The translations under genes were made by a program, and so were the position numbers. The notes beneath the pieces are model-generated. The model was not told the DNA's origin. It did no database searches and was given only the letters and a program-made list of their open reading frames with translations. A stretch of 9,103 bases of DNA from a bacterium (GTDB lineage Bacteria; Blakebacterota; Blakebacteria; Blakebacterales; Blakebacteraceae). Below are positions 2,974-8,363 of the stretch, one piece after another (within the stretch, counting starts at the first letter, position 1; each line of letters opens with the position of its first letter). The DNA is taken from NCBI GenBank assembly GCA_025774615.1, contig JALGVQ010000121.1, positions 1 to 9,103 on the forward strand, in the 5' to 3' direction.

Positions 2974-3390
2974 ATGAATCTTGAAGCGCAATGGATAGTG
3001 GGCTTTGTGGATGGCGAGGGTGGTTTCCATGTGGGGATCAACAAACATCCCGACATGAAGATCGGGTACCAGGTGCTTCCGGAATTCACGGTCGTTCAGC
3101 ATGAACGGGACATTCAGGTCCTGCATGCTTTGAAATCATATTTCGGTTGTGGTGTAGTGCGCTCAAACCATGGAGACCGGATGGCGTATCGGGTGCGAGG
3201 CCAGCAGCATCTGCTTCAGCACATCATCCCATTTTTTGAGAAACACAAGCTGAAGACGAAGAAGGGCATCGAATTCCGCAAGTTCCGGAGGGTCCTGCTC
3301 ATGATGCAGGAGGGGCTGCATCTGACAGAAGACGGGCTGTTGAAGATCCGGGAGATAGCGGCGGAGATGAATCGTGGGGCTGTACGATAA
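2974..3390 (+). CDS. Free-standing LAGLIDADG homing endonuclease, single motif
   Basis: This 138-residue protein has the LAGLIDADG helix at its N terminus as WIVGFVDGEG (residues 7-16), with Glu15 at the catalytic acidic position. It continues with features usual for this family: G-Y-Q-V..PEF.V.QHERD, an FGCG turn, a YRVRG strand, and the FFEKHKLKTKKGIEF-KF helix. One motif in about 140 residues implies a homodimer that cuts a palindromic or near-palindromic site. It looks full length and intact. GGAGGA at 2962-2967, six bases before the ATG, is a strong Shine-Dalgarno, so it is translated as its own gene. Such enzymes usually sit inside introns or inteins, often in rRNA genes. Here the flanks are intergenic and no interrupted host gene is visible. 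It might also have been co-opted for regulation, as some LAGLIDADG proteins have. Confidence 0.9.
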   Translation: MNLEAQWIVGFVDGEGGFHVGINKHPDMKIGYQVLPEFTVVQHERDIQVLHALKSYFGCGVVRSNHGDRMAYRVRGQQHLLQHIIPFFEKHKLKTKKGIEFRKFRRVLLMMQEGLHLTEDGLLKIREIAAEMNRGAVR

Positions 3391-4722: not shown

Positions 4723-6564
4723 ATGAGGATCTGCGAAGTATGCATCAAGATGGGGCTGACGGCTCTTCTGGTTTCGATCCTGATCATACCAGGGGTCGGC
4801 CTGGGACAGACGGCCTCTTACCTGGATTACGACGGATTCACCCGGGAGCTCCGCACTGTCGTCAACAGCTCAGACCTGGTCACCATGGAATCCCTGGGCA
4901 CCACCCTGCAGGGTCGTGACGTGTGGATGGTGCAGGTAGGAAACCCCTCGGGAACGCCCCTTGATGAACGCCCCGGTGTTCTGGTGGTGGGGAACCTGGA
5001 AGGCGACCACCTGGTGGGGAGCCACCTGGCTCTGGAAGCAATCCGTTACCTGCTGGAGAACGCCCTGGACCCGGCGGTCCAGACAGCGTTGGCCGACCAC
5101 GTCTTCTACGTCTTCCCCCGGCTGAATCCCGACGGGGCCGAGGCCATGTTCGCCGGGGTTAAGTGGAACCGAACCACCAACTCTCTTCCATGGGATGCCG
5201 ACAATGATGGGCGGACTGACGAAGACGGACCCGAAGATCTGAACGGCGACGGCTTCATCACGGTGATGAGGGTTGCCGATCCTTCTGGTCCCTACATGAT
5301 CGATCCGGCGGATACCCGTCTCATGAAGCGGGCCGATCCCGCGCAGGGGGAGAGTGGGGCGTATGTGCTCTACTGGGAAGGGATGGATAACGACGGTGAC
5401 GGCTTCATCAATGAGGACGGCCCCGGCGGAGTGGACCTGAACCGGAATTACCAGCACGTGTATCCTTACTGGGAAGGTGACGCCGGTCCTCACATGGTGA
5501 GCGAGGTGGAGAGCAGGGCTCTCATGGATTTTACCATCGCTCACCGCAACATCGCGGCCATCCTGACATTCGGAAAGAGTGATAACCTGGTATCGCCACC
5601 CGATTCCCGGGGCGCTCTGGCCGGGGAAAAGGTGCCGAGTCTGACGGGGTTCGCTGACGCCTCCATCGACGAGATCTGGCAGGTCGGAGTGTTCAGCGCC
5701 AGTGGTGGAGGAGGTCGAGGTCGAGGTGGACGTGGCGGAGGTGGTGGAATCTACCTCCGGGGGGCTCAGCCGGGACGGGACAACGATCCTGGCTCGGGCA
5801 CCCGGCCGGTCACCGCTGTGGCGCCACAGGATCTGGTGTATTACGCGGCCATCTCAGAGGCCTACAAACGGATCACAGGCATCGAGAACGTTCCCGTTCA
5901 CCGTACACCTGAGGGAGCCTTCTTCGAATACGGTTACTTCCAGTACGGGGTGCCCTCCTTCAGTACGCTGGGCTGGGGCGTGCCCGCCGGTGAATCGGGA
6001 AGAGAGGGGCGTCAGCGGGGAGGTTCCGGCGCGGATGCGGCGATACTCTCAGGCCTCGAGGCCGCGGGTATCACGGCGTTCGTGGAGTGGGGCCCCTTCC
6101 AGCATCCCGACCTGGGAGATGTGGAGATCGGCGGATTCATTCCTTATGTGACCCATAACCCACCAGTGGAGCAGGTACCGGAACTGGGGGCGAAACACGG
6201 TGAATTTCTTGTGGAGCTGGCGGGAATGCTTCCCCGGGTCCGTATAGCCGACACCGAGGTGACGGCACATGGCGGTGGACTTTTCACCATCACCGCGGAA
6301 GTGGAGAATGTGGGATTCCTGCCCACTTCGCTGCGCCATGGTCAGCGCTCCCGCGCTGTGGGGCCCACGCTGCTGCAGCTCCAGGTCGATAGCGATGACA
6401 TCCTCTCCGGAGCAGCCAAGACGGCCACGGTGAGTGTGCTGGAGGGTTCCGGCAGCCGGGCCAGTGTGACCTGGTTCATTCGGGGCAGGGAGGGAAGTGA
6501 AGTAAAGATCACGCTCCGGTCGATGAAGGCCGGCCATGACACCATAACAGTGACCCTGAGGTAA
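4723..6564 (+). CDS. M14 carboxypeptidase-like exported protein with degenerate active site
   Basis: This 613-residue protein has a signal peptide (hydrophobic residues 11-27, cleavage likely after GLG) and a zinc-carboxypeptidase-type fold closely parallel to the next gene. It has LGTTLQGRDVWMV, a metal-site block, RLNPDG, an insert with two Asp-rich loops (DADNDGRTDEDG from 158; DNDGDGFINEDG from 222), VDLNRNY (237-243), and a C-terminal beta-sandwich domain. The catalytic residues differ. The metal motif reads EGDH (93-96) rather than HxxE, the third zinc His is missing (TFGKSDN, Gly284-Lys285), and the catalytic Glu position reads Leu416 (SFSTLGWG). It also has a Gly/Arg-rich insert at 327-342 and a second at about 424-434. 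It may be a pseudoenzyme or an altered-site enzyme. No Shine-Dalgarno precedes ATG 4723, so the start is uncertain; ATG 4750 would lose the basic residues. Confidence 0.85.
   Translation: MRICEVCIKMGLTALLVSILIIPGVGLGQTASYLDYDGFTRELRTVVNSSDLVTMESLGTTLQGRDVWMVQVGNPSGTPLDERPGVLVVGNLEGDHLVGSHLALEAIRYLLENALDPAVQTALADHVFYVFPRLNPDGAEAMFAGVKWNRTTNSLPWDADNDGRTDEDGPEDLNGDGFITVMRVADPSGPYMIDPADTRLMKRADPAQGESGAYVLYWEGMDNDGDGFINEDGPGGVDLNRNYQHVYPYWEGDAGPHMVSEVESRALMDFTIAHRNIAAILTFGKSDNLVSPPDSRGALAGEKVPSLTGFADASIDEIWQVGVFSASGGGGRGRGGRGGGGGIYLRGAQPGRDNDPGSGTRPVTAVAPQDLVYYAAISEAYKRITGIENVPVHRTPEGAFFEYGYFQYGVPSFSTLGWGVPAGESGREGRQRGGSGADAAILSGLEAAGITAFVEWGPFQHPDLGDVEIGGFIPYVTHNPPVEQVPELGAKHGEFLVELAGMLPRVRIADTEVTAHGGGLFTITAEVENVGFLPTSLRHGQRSRAVGPTLLQLQVDSDDILSGAAKTATVSVLEGSGSRASVTWFIRGREGSEVKITLRSMKAGHDTITVTLR
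5701..5748 (+). repeat. Low-complexity Gly/Arg-coding tract in the first M14 gene
   Basis: A run of GGN codons with interspersed CGN codons encodes Ser, then four Gly, then R-G-R-G-G-R and five Gly (residues 327-342). The DNA is built of short GGT/GGA/CGA/CGT units, a slippage-prone arrangement. The paralogous downstream gene has no such tract at the equivalent place, so it is an insertion into a surface loop rather than part of the fold. Confidence 0.8.
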
Positions 6565-6569
6565 GGAGG
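6563..6569 (+). promoter_or_regulatory. Shine-Dalgarno overlapping the upstream stop codon
   Basis: AAGGAGG begins within the TAA stop (6562-6564) of the first M14 gene and lies six bases before ATG 6576. This arrangement couples translation of the second M14 gene to the first and supports the two as one operon. Confidence 0.85.
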
Positions 6570-6575
6570 CCCATC

Positions 6576-8363
6576 ATGATGAGCATTATCAAATGTCTGG
6601 CGGCTGCCTCTCTTGCCGTCATCGCACTGGTTGTCTGCCCGTTAATCAACCCAACCATGCTTCAGGCTCAGGAGAAGCGGGGTTCTGACCCGCCTCACAC
6701 GCTCGACCTGACCTGGGACCGGTGGCTGGACCATGATGAAATCGGGGAACGCATGCAGCTCATGGCCCGCACGTGGCCTGATTTCCTCTCCCTGTCATCC
6801 ATGGGGGACAGTTATGGGGGCCGGGAACTCTGGGTGATGACCATCAACAACCCGGACACGGGTCCCGAGCTGGGTAAGGCCGCGATGTATATCGAGGCCG
6901 ATGTCCACGGCAACGAGATCCAGGGTTGCGTAGTCTGTGTGTACACTATCTGGTATCTCATGGAGAACTACACCCGGATCCCGGAGATCAGGCGGCTGGT
7001 GGACGAGAAGGTGTTCTATATCGTTCCCAGCGTCAACCCGGACGGTCTGGACTACTTCCTGGACGAGACGGGATCGGGCGCCCGAACCGGGCATGTACCG
7101 GTGGATTCAGACGGGGACGGACTCTTTGACGAGGATGGACCTGACGATCTGAACGGGAACGGAGTCATCGAACAGATCCGGAAGTATGTGCCGGGAGAAG
7201 GAACCCACCGTATCAACCGGGGCGAGCCGCGGATGATGGAAGCAGTGCTCCCCGGGGAGAAGGGAGACTGGATCCTTCTCGGCTCGGAAGGATTGGACAA
7301 CGACGGCGATGGCCGGGTGAACGAAGACCCGCCGGGGGGGTACGACGGTAACCGGAACTATGGAGCCGGCTGGCAGCCGCAGTACGTGCAGGGTGGCGCC
7401 ATGGACTATCCCTTCCAGCTTCCGGAATCAAGGGCGACCCAGGAGTTCTTTGCGGCTCATCCCAACATCGGGGGAATGCAGACCTACCATAATGCTGCCG
7501 GTATGATCCTGCGGCCTCCCGGAGTGGCCTGGAACGGCGATCTGCCCGCCGCCGACATCCGGGTCTACAACGAGATCGGGGAGAACGGGGAGCGGATACT
7601 GCCCTGGTTCAACTACCACATAACCTGGCAGGGGCTCTACACCATCCATGGAGGTTCGATCGACTGGGCCAATGACGGCCATGGTATTGTCTCCTTCCTC
7701 AACGAACTCTGGAACGGTGGTCAGTATTTCCAGAGTCCCCTGCTGATGGAGCAGATGGAGAACGATCGCACTCCCATCTCCAGGGGGCTCGACCGGTTCT
7801 TCTTCAACGACTTCCTGGAGTTCGGGGATATGTGGATCGACTGGGCCCCCTTCGATCATCCCGAGTACGGTGAAGTGGAGATGGGAGGGTGGAAGAAGTA
7901 CGCGAACCGTCTCAACCCGCGGTTCATGAGCATGGAGGTGTTCCACCGGAACATGGCCTTCACCCTCTACCATGCCGATCAACTGCCCCTCATGAGAGTG
8001 GGGGAAACCAGGGTGGAGCGACTGGGTGACGGACTGTACAGGGTCTGGGTGGATATCACCAATGAGAGACTCATCCCCACCATCACATCCCGGGCGATGG
8101 GCACCCGGGCGGTCCGACCTGATCTTCTTACCGCGGACGGGAACGTGGAGATCGTAGCTGCCGGATGGGTGAGGAACAGGCACTTTCCCGGACCGATCGA
8201 CCTCATCGATCAGGAGGATCTGAATCGGATCATGATCCGGAGTGGACATCCGGGCCGGACCACCAGGACCATCGAATACCTGGTCAGGGGGAGCGGCACC
8301 ATGGAAGTGACCTATTCCTCGGTGAAGGGCGGAACGGTGACTACTACCGTGAGAGTGCGCTGA
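6576..8363 (+). CDS. M14-family zinc carboxypeptidase, exported, active site complete
   Basis: This 595-residue protein has a signal peptide (hydrophobic about 8-22, cleavage near LQA/QEK at about 31). All M14 landmarks are visible: zinc ligands His111 and Glu114 in DVHGNE, NPDG, substrate-binding Asn-Arg in GNRNY (259-262), third zinc ligand His305 in TYHNAAG, and catalytic Glu377 in SFLNELW. The spacing from His305 to Glu377 (72) is close to that of carboxypeptidase A. The distance from His111 to His305 is about 70 residues longer because of an insert with two calcium-loop-like Asp-rich segments (DSDGDGLFDEDG; DNDGDGRVNEDP). The C terminus from about 465 is a beta-sandwich domain shared with the upstream protein. 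It should remove C-terminal residues from peptides, or cleave peptidoglycan-type peptides, outside the cytoplasm. It starts 11 bp after the upstream paralogue. A second ATG at 6579 is equally possible. Confidence 0.92.
   Translation: MMSIIKCLAAASLAVIALVVCPLINPTMLQAQEKRGSDPPHTLDLTWDRWLDHDEIGERMQLMARTWPDFLSLSSMGDSYGGRELWVMTINNPDTGPELGKAAMYIEADVHGNEIQGCVVCVYTIWYLMENYTRIPEIRRLVDEKVFYIVPSVNPDGLDYFLDETGSGARTGHVPVDSDGDGLFDEDGPDDLNGNGVIEQIRKYVPGEGTHRINRGEPRMMEAVLPGEKGDWILLGSEGLDNDGDGRVNEDPPGGYDGNRNYGAGWQPQYVQGGAMDYPFQLPESRATQEFFAAHPNIGGMQTYHNAAGMILRPPGVAWNGDLPAADIRVYNEIGENGERILPWFNYHITWQGLYTIHGGSIDWANDGHGIVSFLNELWNGGQYFQSPLLMEQMENDRTPISRGLDRFFFNDFLEFGDMWIDWAPFDHPEYGEVEMGGWKKYANRLNPRFMSMEVFHRNMAFTLYHADQLPLMRVGETRVERLGDGLYRVWVDITNERLIPTITSRAMGTRAVRPDLLTADGNVEIVAAGWVRNRHFPGPIDLIDQEDLNRIMIRSGHPGRTTRTIEYLVRGSGTMEVTYSSVKGGTVTTTVRVR

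Follow-up and report, generated by a model that had tools for sequence, protein, structure and literature searches.

Two tandem M14 frames and their active sites

The window analysed here comprises positions 1 to 9,103 of contig JALGVQ010000121.1 of a Blakebacterota genome, and our subject is a pair of tandem genes on its forward strand whose products both belong to the M14 carboxypeptidase family. The product of the upstream gene and its family are called UP, those of the downstream gene dn, and residue places are named after carboxypeptidase A (CPA), namely His69, Glu72, Arg127, His196, Tyr248 and Glu270. The features concerned are the following.

4723..6564, + strand: open frame of UP (613 amino acids, Pfam M14), a predicted secreted M14 pseudo-carboxypeptidase with an N-terminal hydrophobic signal-like stretch and all catalytic residues replaced
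4999..5010, + strand: EGDH of UP (E93..H96), aligned with the first zinc motif, HxxE
5194..5253, + strand: first Asp-rich calcium-type loop of UP (D158-G177); D158, D160, D162, E167, D168 and D172 are found in 49-50/50 UP and 44/44 dn
5377..5418, + strand: second Asp-rich calcium-type loop of UP (E219-D232); E219, D222, D224, D226, E231 and D232 are found in 51/51 UP and 44/44 dn
5572..5574, + strand: G284 of UP (TFGK), where the third zinc ligand (His196 of CPA) would stand; never His in the family (S 21, G 21, C 4, A 2, N 1, T 1)
5968..5970, + strand: L416 of UP (STL), where the catalytic Glu (Glu270 of CPA) would stand; never Glu in the UP family
6565..6569, + strand: GGAGG, resembling a ribosome-binding site, read directly after the UP stop and 6 bases before the dn start
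6576..8363, + strand: open frame of dn (595 amino acids, Pfam M14), a canonical, predicted secreted M14 carboxypeptidase with a complete active site
6906..6917, + strand: HGNE of dn (H111..E114), first zinc motif
7083..7085, + strand: R170 of dn, which probably corresponds to Arg127 of CPA
7488..7490, + strand: H305 of dn (TYHN), third zinc ligand
7638..7640, + strand: Y355 of dn, which probably corresponds to Tyr248 of CPA
7704..7706, + strand: E377 of dn (NEL), catalytic Glu

Both proteins are M14 members by fold and homology, as their Pfam M14 scores of 94.6 bits (UP) and 134.3 bits (dn) exceed the cut-off of 21.6. They are 31% identical across the first 310 residues, and no NCBIfam family matched either of them. 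An earlier note on this DNA had described the NRN and NPDG motifs, the Asp-rich inserts in both proteins and the C-terminal beta domain as common to the pair, and had taken the UP frame to be intact and coupled to dn; our comparison agrees on both counts. Indeed, the two open frames stand in tandem, UP ending with TAA at 6562-6564 and dn beginning with the ATG at 6576, 11 bases past that stop, with GGAGG between them. The UP start is uncertain between M1 (4723) and M10 (4750), with a strong ribosome site at neither. Residues 327-346 of UP (about 5701-5760) form a Gly/Arg-rich low-complexity region whose length is highly variable among UP relatives. The predicted models of the window sequence and of a related Acidobacteriota sequence (locus L063, see below) are weak, with mean pLDDT of 53.9 and 51.4 and much of the active-site region below 50; the best Foldseek match of the UP model, carboxypeptidase T (E 8e-11), was hence used for the overall fold alone.

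The same note had set E93/H96, G284 and L416 of the upstream protein against H111/E114, H305 and E377 of the downstream one, an assignment that the alignments uphold. An independent alignment places EGDH of UP on HGDE of carboxypeptidase M, and in the UP-family profile the TF-S/G position falls on TFH of carboxypeptidase T; the assignment thus does not depend on the comparison between UP and dn alone. Among the scorable proteins, the residues of His69, Glu72, His196 and Glu270 are each present in 0/50 UP, while all four are present in 44/44 dn. R170 and Y355 are likewise found in every dn (44/44) and are unconserved in UP, so that the whole set expected of an active M14 enzyme (the HxxE and His ligands and the Glu270, Arg127 and Tyr248 equivalents) is found throughout the dn family. 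UP homologues with an ordinary HxxE...H...E set had been named in advance as the finding that would overturn a loss or swap of the active site; they were sought and occur neither among the 50 scorable proteins nor among 14 hold-out loci of one Acidobacteriota class that were excluded from profile building, and the reading survives. None of these hold-out UP proteins (0/14) has any of the catalytic residues.

What replaces the lost residues varies. The place of His69 holds an acid in 45/50 UP (E 39, D 6), and that of Glu72 holds His in 27 and Asp in 11 of the 50, followed by Arg, Gln, Tyr and Thr. Within one half of the family, which spans several phyla, ExxH itself is found in 24 of 29 members; among the scorable remainder it occurs in a single protein, the other half having ExxD, ExxR, DxxT, QxxQ and similar forms. 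In the hold-out set the His of ExxH is kept in 5/14 proteins and replaced in 9/14 (by Q, Y, V, L and the like). The conservation that the earlier note had asked about therefore stands for the missing His and Glu, which are absent from all 50 proteins, and for ExxH in one half of the family, but not for ExxH in nearly all of the rest. No other His that is both general in UP and specific to it was seen, the widespread ones being shared with dn or not general. Other positions are conserved specifically in UP, namely N288 (46/50) and D287 (37/50), near the lost third ligand, together with N153 and T180; the NRN motif is retained in part (N 36, R 33 of 50). Across UP relatives, the constant feature is the loss of all active-site residues and not the exact letters EGDH. 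Judged from these alignments, the H/E reversal is a real, inherited trait of part of the UP family, whereas as a rule the metal site is lost.

Distribution, gene order and shared history of the pair

A single-sequence search of 60 genomes retrieved from an unrelated genome of another phylum (G057) a near-full-length UP, 51% identical to that of the window and followed by dn; when named genomes were scanned, a Vicinamibacterales bacterium (Acidobacteriota; L063) also proved to carry the pair. Family profiles for UP (A1) and dn (A2) were then searched against whole genomes. The window's own genome has a second, diverged pair on another contig (C183). UP is present in 5/6 genomes of the phylum of G057 and in 13/193 genomes of the class of the Vicinamibacterales genome, and the pair in 3/10 genomes of the phylum of G018. 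Altogether, the pair occurs with intact frames in dozens of genomes from at least five bacterial phyla, which are distinct because the groups differ in genome numbers. In all, the analysis assembled 56 UP-dn pairs. No relative was found in the viral contigs scanned, and the plasmid searches yielded one archaeal M14 relative, from Halomontanus.

The two genes are rarely found apart. Across a broad sample of 386 genomes, dn (scoring 530 bits or more) and UP were found in the same 15 genomes and in no others, three of these UP proteins (family f109) being very diverged (Fisher's exact p about 3e-27, descriptive only because the genomes are related). Among 82 genomes of the phylum of G047, 30 have both genes, counting one (G104) whose dn is a fragment at a contig end, 2 have UP only, 1 has dn only and 49 have neither (p about 7e-19, to be read in the same way); the three single-gene exceptions all lie near contig ends. 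The adjacency of the pair, which the earlier note had proposed to check, also extends beyond the window: UP precedes dn on the same strand in 43/43 pairs, and in 39 of them the frames overlap or lie no more than about 155 bases apart. In the hold-out set, dn follows UP on the same strand at all 13 loci where the contig continues, several of these dn genes being split or cut by a contig end. In one family, a gene on the opposite strand that reads as htpG separates UP from dn, which remain neighbours. Signal-like N-termini are found in 48/52 UP and 44/44 dn.

Some individual loci deserve mention. The opposing htpG-like gene is located between UP and dn, or immediately ahead of dn, at L167 4087-6033, L172 4164-6065 and L190 20-1966. 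In family f109, found in small genomes, a very diverged UP (e.g. GLRGDEPYS) precedes dn (L184 3093-6547, L186 1862-5172 and L187 2681-5991), and at the last two loci the UP and dn frames overlap at the stop. Split frames, which may reflect frameshifts or assembly errors, were seen for dn at L173 3957-5811 (genome G115) and L211 56-1881 and for UP at L213 1345-3342.

UP and dn also appear to share a history. In a tree of 115 proteins, UP forms one side of a branch with support 94 and dn one side of another with support 98, and each UP of the window genome's two pairs clusters with the partners of its own dn. The pairwise distances of the two families are correlated over 43 pairs (Mantel r 0.853), with none of 5000 permutations as high. 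Estimates of dN/dS among near relatives are 0.10-0.25 for UP and 0.05-0.20 for dn, and UP is the faster-evolving of the two (mean p-distance 0.67 vs 0.54). At the level of sequence, this pattern fits a single ancient duplication followed by inheritance as a cassette, which may also have been transferred horizontally.

Beyond the pair, inspection of 13 loci by eye revealed no neighbour common to them. The window itself also encodes an endonuclease/exonuclease/phosphatase-family protein with a lipoprotein-like start (968-1912, +), whose frame ends convergently with that of a weak choloylglycine-hydrolase-family protein (1903-2790, -), and a free-standing LAGLIDADG endonuclease frame (2974-3390, +; PF00961, 84.9 bits).

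Other M14 genes were seen along the way. The window's own genome (3.3 Mb, 82% complete) has 30 M14 matches, corresponding to fewer genes since some are split, an unusual expansion. One of its contigs (C2) carries a tandem M14 pair with overlapping frames and a canonical site in both (L010 398-4437). Another (C206; L012 550-2478) and genome G057 (L061 75-2018) encode an M14 subfamily that keeps HSxE and the catalytic Glu and has Asp in place of the third-ligand His; such proteins may work with the altered ligand or form another dead branch. A second type of M14 pair is reversed, the active gene coming first and the pseudo-member following (L179 3510-7665, L180 3077-7256 and L189 2115-6098). Its pseudo-member keeps one Glu (QGDE, RGDE) and has lost both His and the catalytic Glu, and two of the genomes concerned (G094 and G095) also have the UP-dn pair.

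A probable non-catalytic partner for an active peptidase

Since the two genes stay together in dozens of bacteria belonging to five or more phyla, the dead UP probably has a real non-catalytic job for dn. That UP is a functional pseudoenzyme appears very likely to us, its active-site loss being, on the sequences, fixed in a lineage under purifying selection, as expected of a pseudopeptidase. The suggestion of the earlier note that UP retains a function tied to its active neighbour is thus borne out, for a non-catalytic function, by the conserved pairing, the near-perfect co-occurrence, the purifying selection and the co-diversification. We favour the view that UP is a dedicated, obligate non-catalytic partner of dn, probably within a heteromeric secreted carboxypeptidase; whether it would act through a physical complex with dn is a question on which we lean, with some reserve, towards yes.

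According to this proposal, UP and dn would both derive from a secreted M14 carboxypeptidase gene that was duplicated long ago, and would be inherited as one cassette. dn would be the catalytic subunit, a zinc carboxypeptidase of the CPA or carboxypeptidase T type, and probably prefers hydrophobic C-terminal residues, as suggested by the residue near the 255 position and by established knowledge of M14 enzymes. UP would have retained a folded scaffold and the calcium-type loops, whereas its zinc ligands and catalytic Glu are gone, as are the equivalents of Arg127 and Tyr248. It would be exported alongside dn and pair with it, stabilising it, holding the polypeptide substrate or setting specificity, much as the alpha subunit of the mitochondrial processing peptidase relates to the beta subunit, and Csd2 to Csd1. 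On a broader scale, the chances seem to us evenly balanced that these pairs represent a widespread and hitherto undescribed class of secreted bacterial carboxypeptidases made of two subunits, the live one depending on its fully dead M14 sister for activity or for the choice of substrate, and the cassette occurring in at least five phyla.

Three points weigh against a partnership of this kind. First, the Mantel correlation and the co-occurrence would also be expected if an operon were inherited vertically and its products worked side by side without contact. Second, the family in which an htpG-like gene splits the pair implies that co-translation is not essential. Finally, a solitary, long-branch UP (L170 4031-5962, genome G077) has no adjacent dn, in a genome that has a full pair elsewhere.

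The alternative that retains the most weight, although we consider it unlikely, is that UP is an independent peptide- or matrix-binding protein with a receptor-like carboxypeptidase fold, sharing a peptide-uptake or surface role with dn and forming no stable complex with it. Known M14 pseudopeptidases interact with collagens (PMC11266112), and UP partly keeps NRN and has its own conserved residues, D287 and N288, beside the former metal site. However, UP occurs almost never without dn, and the equivalent of Arg127, which would help to grip a C-terminus, is unconserved in UP.

It is improbable that UP serves as a built-in inhibitor or decoy, keeping dn off, or shielding the cell's own peptides, until export is done. 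Many M14 enzymes are kept latent by a pro-domain, and UP is translated first and adjoins or overlaps dn in most genomes; yet what is preserved is the full-length UP scaffold and not a short inhibitory segment.

The earlier note had found the exact H/E reversal striking and proposed that it could be a re-arranged metal site, which here would give UP a new metal-dependent activity. The recurrence of ExxH across several phyla in one half of the family, and the M14 precedent of Csd4 with its altered motif QxxE...H (PMC4220969), speak for this idea. It is nevertheless highly improbable, because the reversal is absent from nearly all of the other half and no substitute His is seen: in roughly half of the proteins D, R, Q, Y or T stands in for the His of ExxH, which is also replaced in most hold-out UP proteins, and neither a His at the third ligand nor the catalytic Glu occurs in any of them. 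A re-arranged site was thus rejected as unlikely. Lastly, that UP is the product of a decaying pseudogene or an assembly error in the window, as the loss of every catalytic residue might suggest, is ruled out by the intact frames in dozens of genomes, the dN/dS of 0.10-0.25 and the 51%-identical relative in another phylum.

UP and dn among known M14 proteins and peptidase pairs

The M14 pseudopeptidases treated in the review consulted come from animals and fungi, and little is understood of what they do at the molecular level. A literature search that left most subscription journals and all bioRxiv preprints outside its scope yielded no account of a bacterial M14 pair with one pseudo and one active member. 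A nearly exceptionless bacterial pair of this kind offers a clean system in which to ask how a dead peptidase serves the live one beside it, and, as the genomes that bear it are often fragmented assemblies, informs on extracellular peptide handling by little-studied bacteria. It also carries a warning for annotation: UP exceeds the Pfam cut-off for M14 zinc carboxypeptidases and yet, to judge by its residues, can hardly bind zinc in the usual way.

The nearest solved relative of UP and dn by profile is carboxypeptidase T of Thermoactinomyces vulgaris, which differs from both in being an active enzyme of about 323 residues without the Asp-rich inserts. Csd4, a bacterial M14 protein with an altered first metal ligand, resembles UP in that respect, but it keeps the Glu and His ligands and binds metal (PMC4220969). 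UP does not fit the Csd4 type, with three metal ligands of which one is substituted, since it keeps no ligand in place and has small residues at the third. The M14 pseudopeptidases of animals and fungi, AEBP1/ACLP, CPXM1, CPXM2, domain III of carboxypeptidase D (CPD) and Ecm14 (PMC11266112, PMC7706225), share with UP the M14 fold, the loss of active-site residues and a non-catalytic role. Nonetheless, they keep parts of the zinc site, His69 being present in all five tabulated (PMC11266112), while UP has lost every site. Moreover, CPD domain III lies within a protein that bears active domains, whereas UP is a separate bacterial protein paired with an active sister gene.

Outside the M14 family, Csd1 and Csd2 of Helicobacter pylori are active and metal-free M23B homologues that form a heterodimer (PMC5053510). 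They differ from UP and dn by their family (LytM domain) and by dimerising through helical domains. The alpha and beta subunits of the mitochondrial processing peptidase (M16B) offer an analogy of working principle with the pair (PMC11266112), their family and compartment being different. UP and dn share with both systems the joint occurrence of an active and an inactive homologue, seen here in their co-occurrence and gene order. By this analogy, the likeness to the mitochondrial processing peptidase and to Csd1-Csd2 is one of working principle and not of membership.

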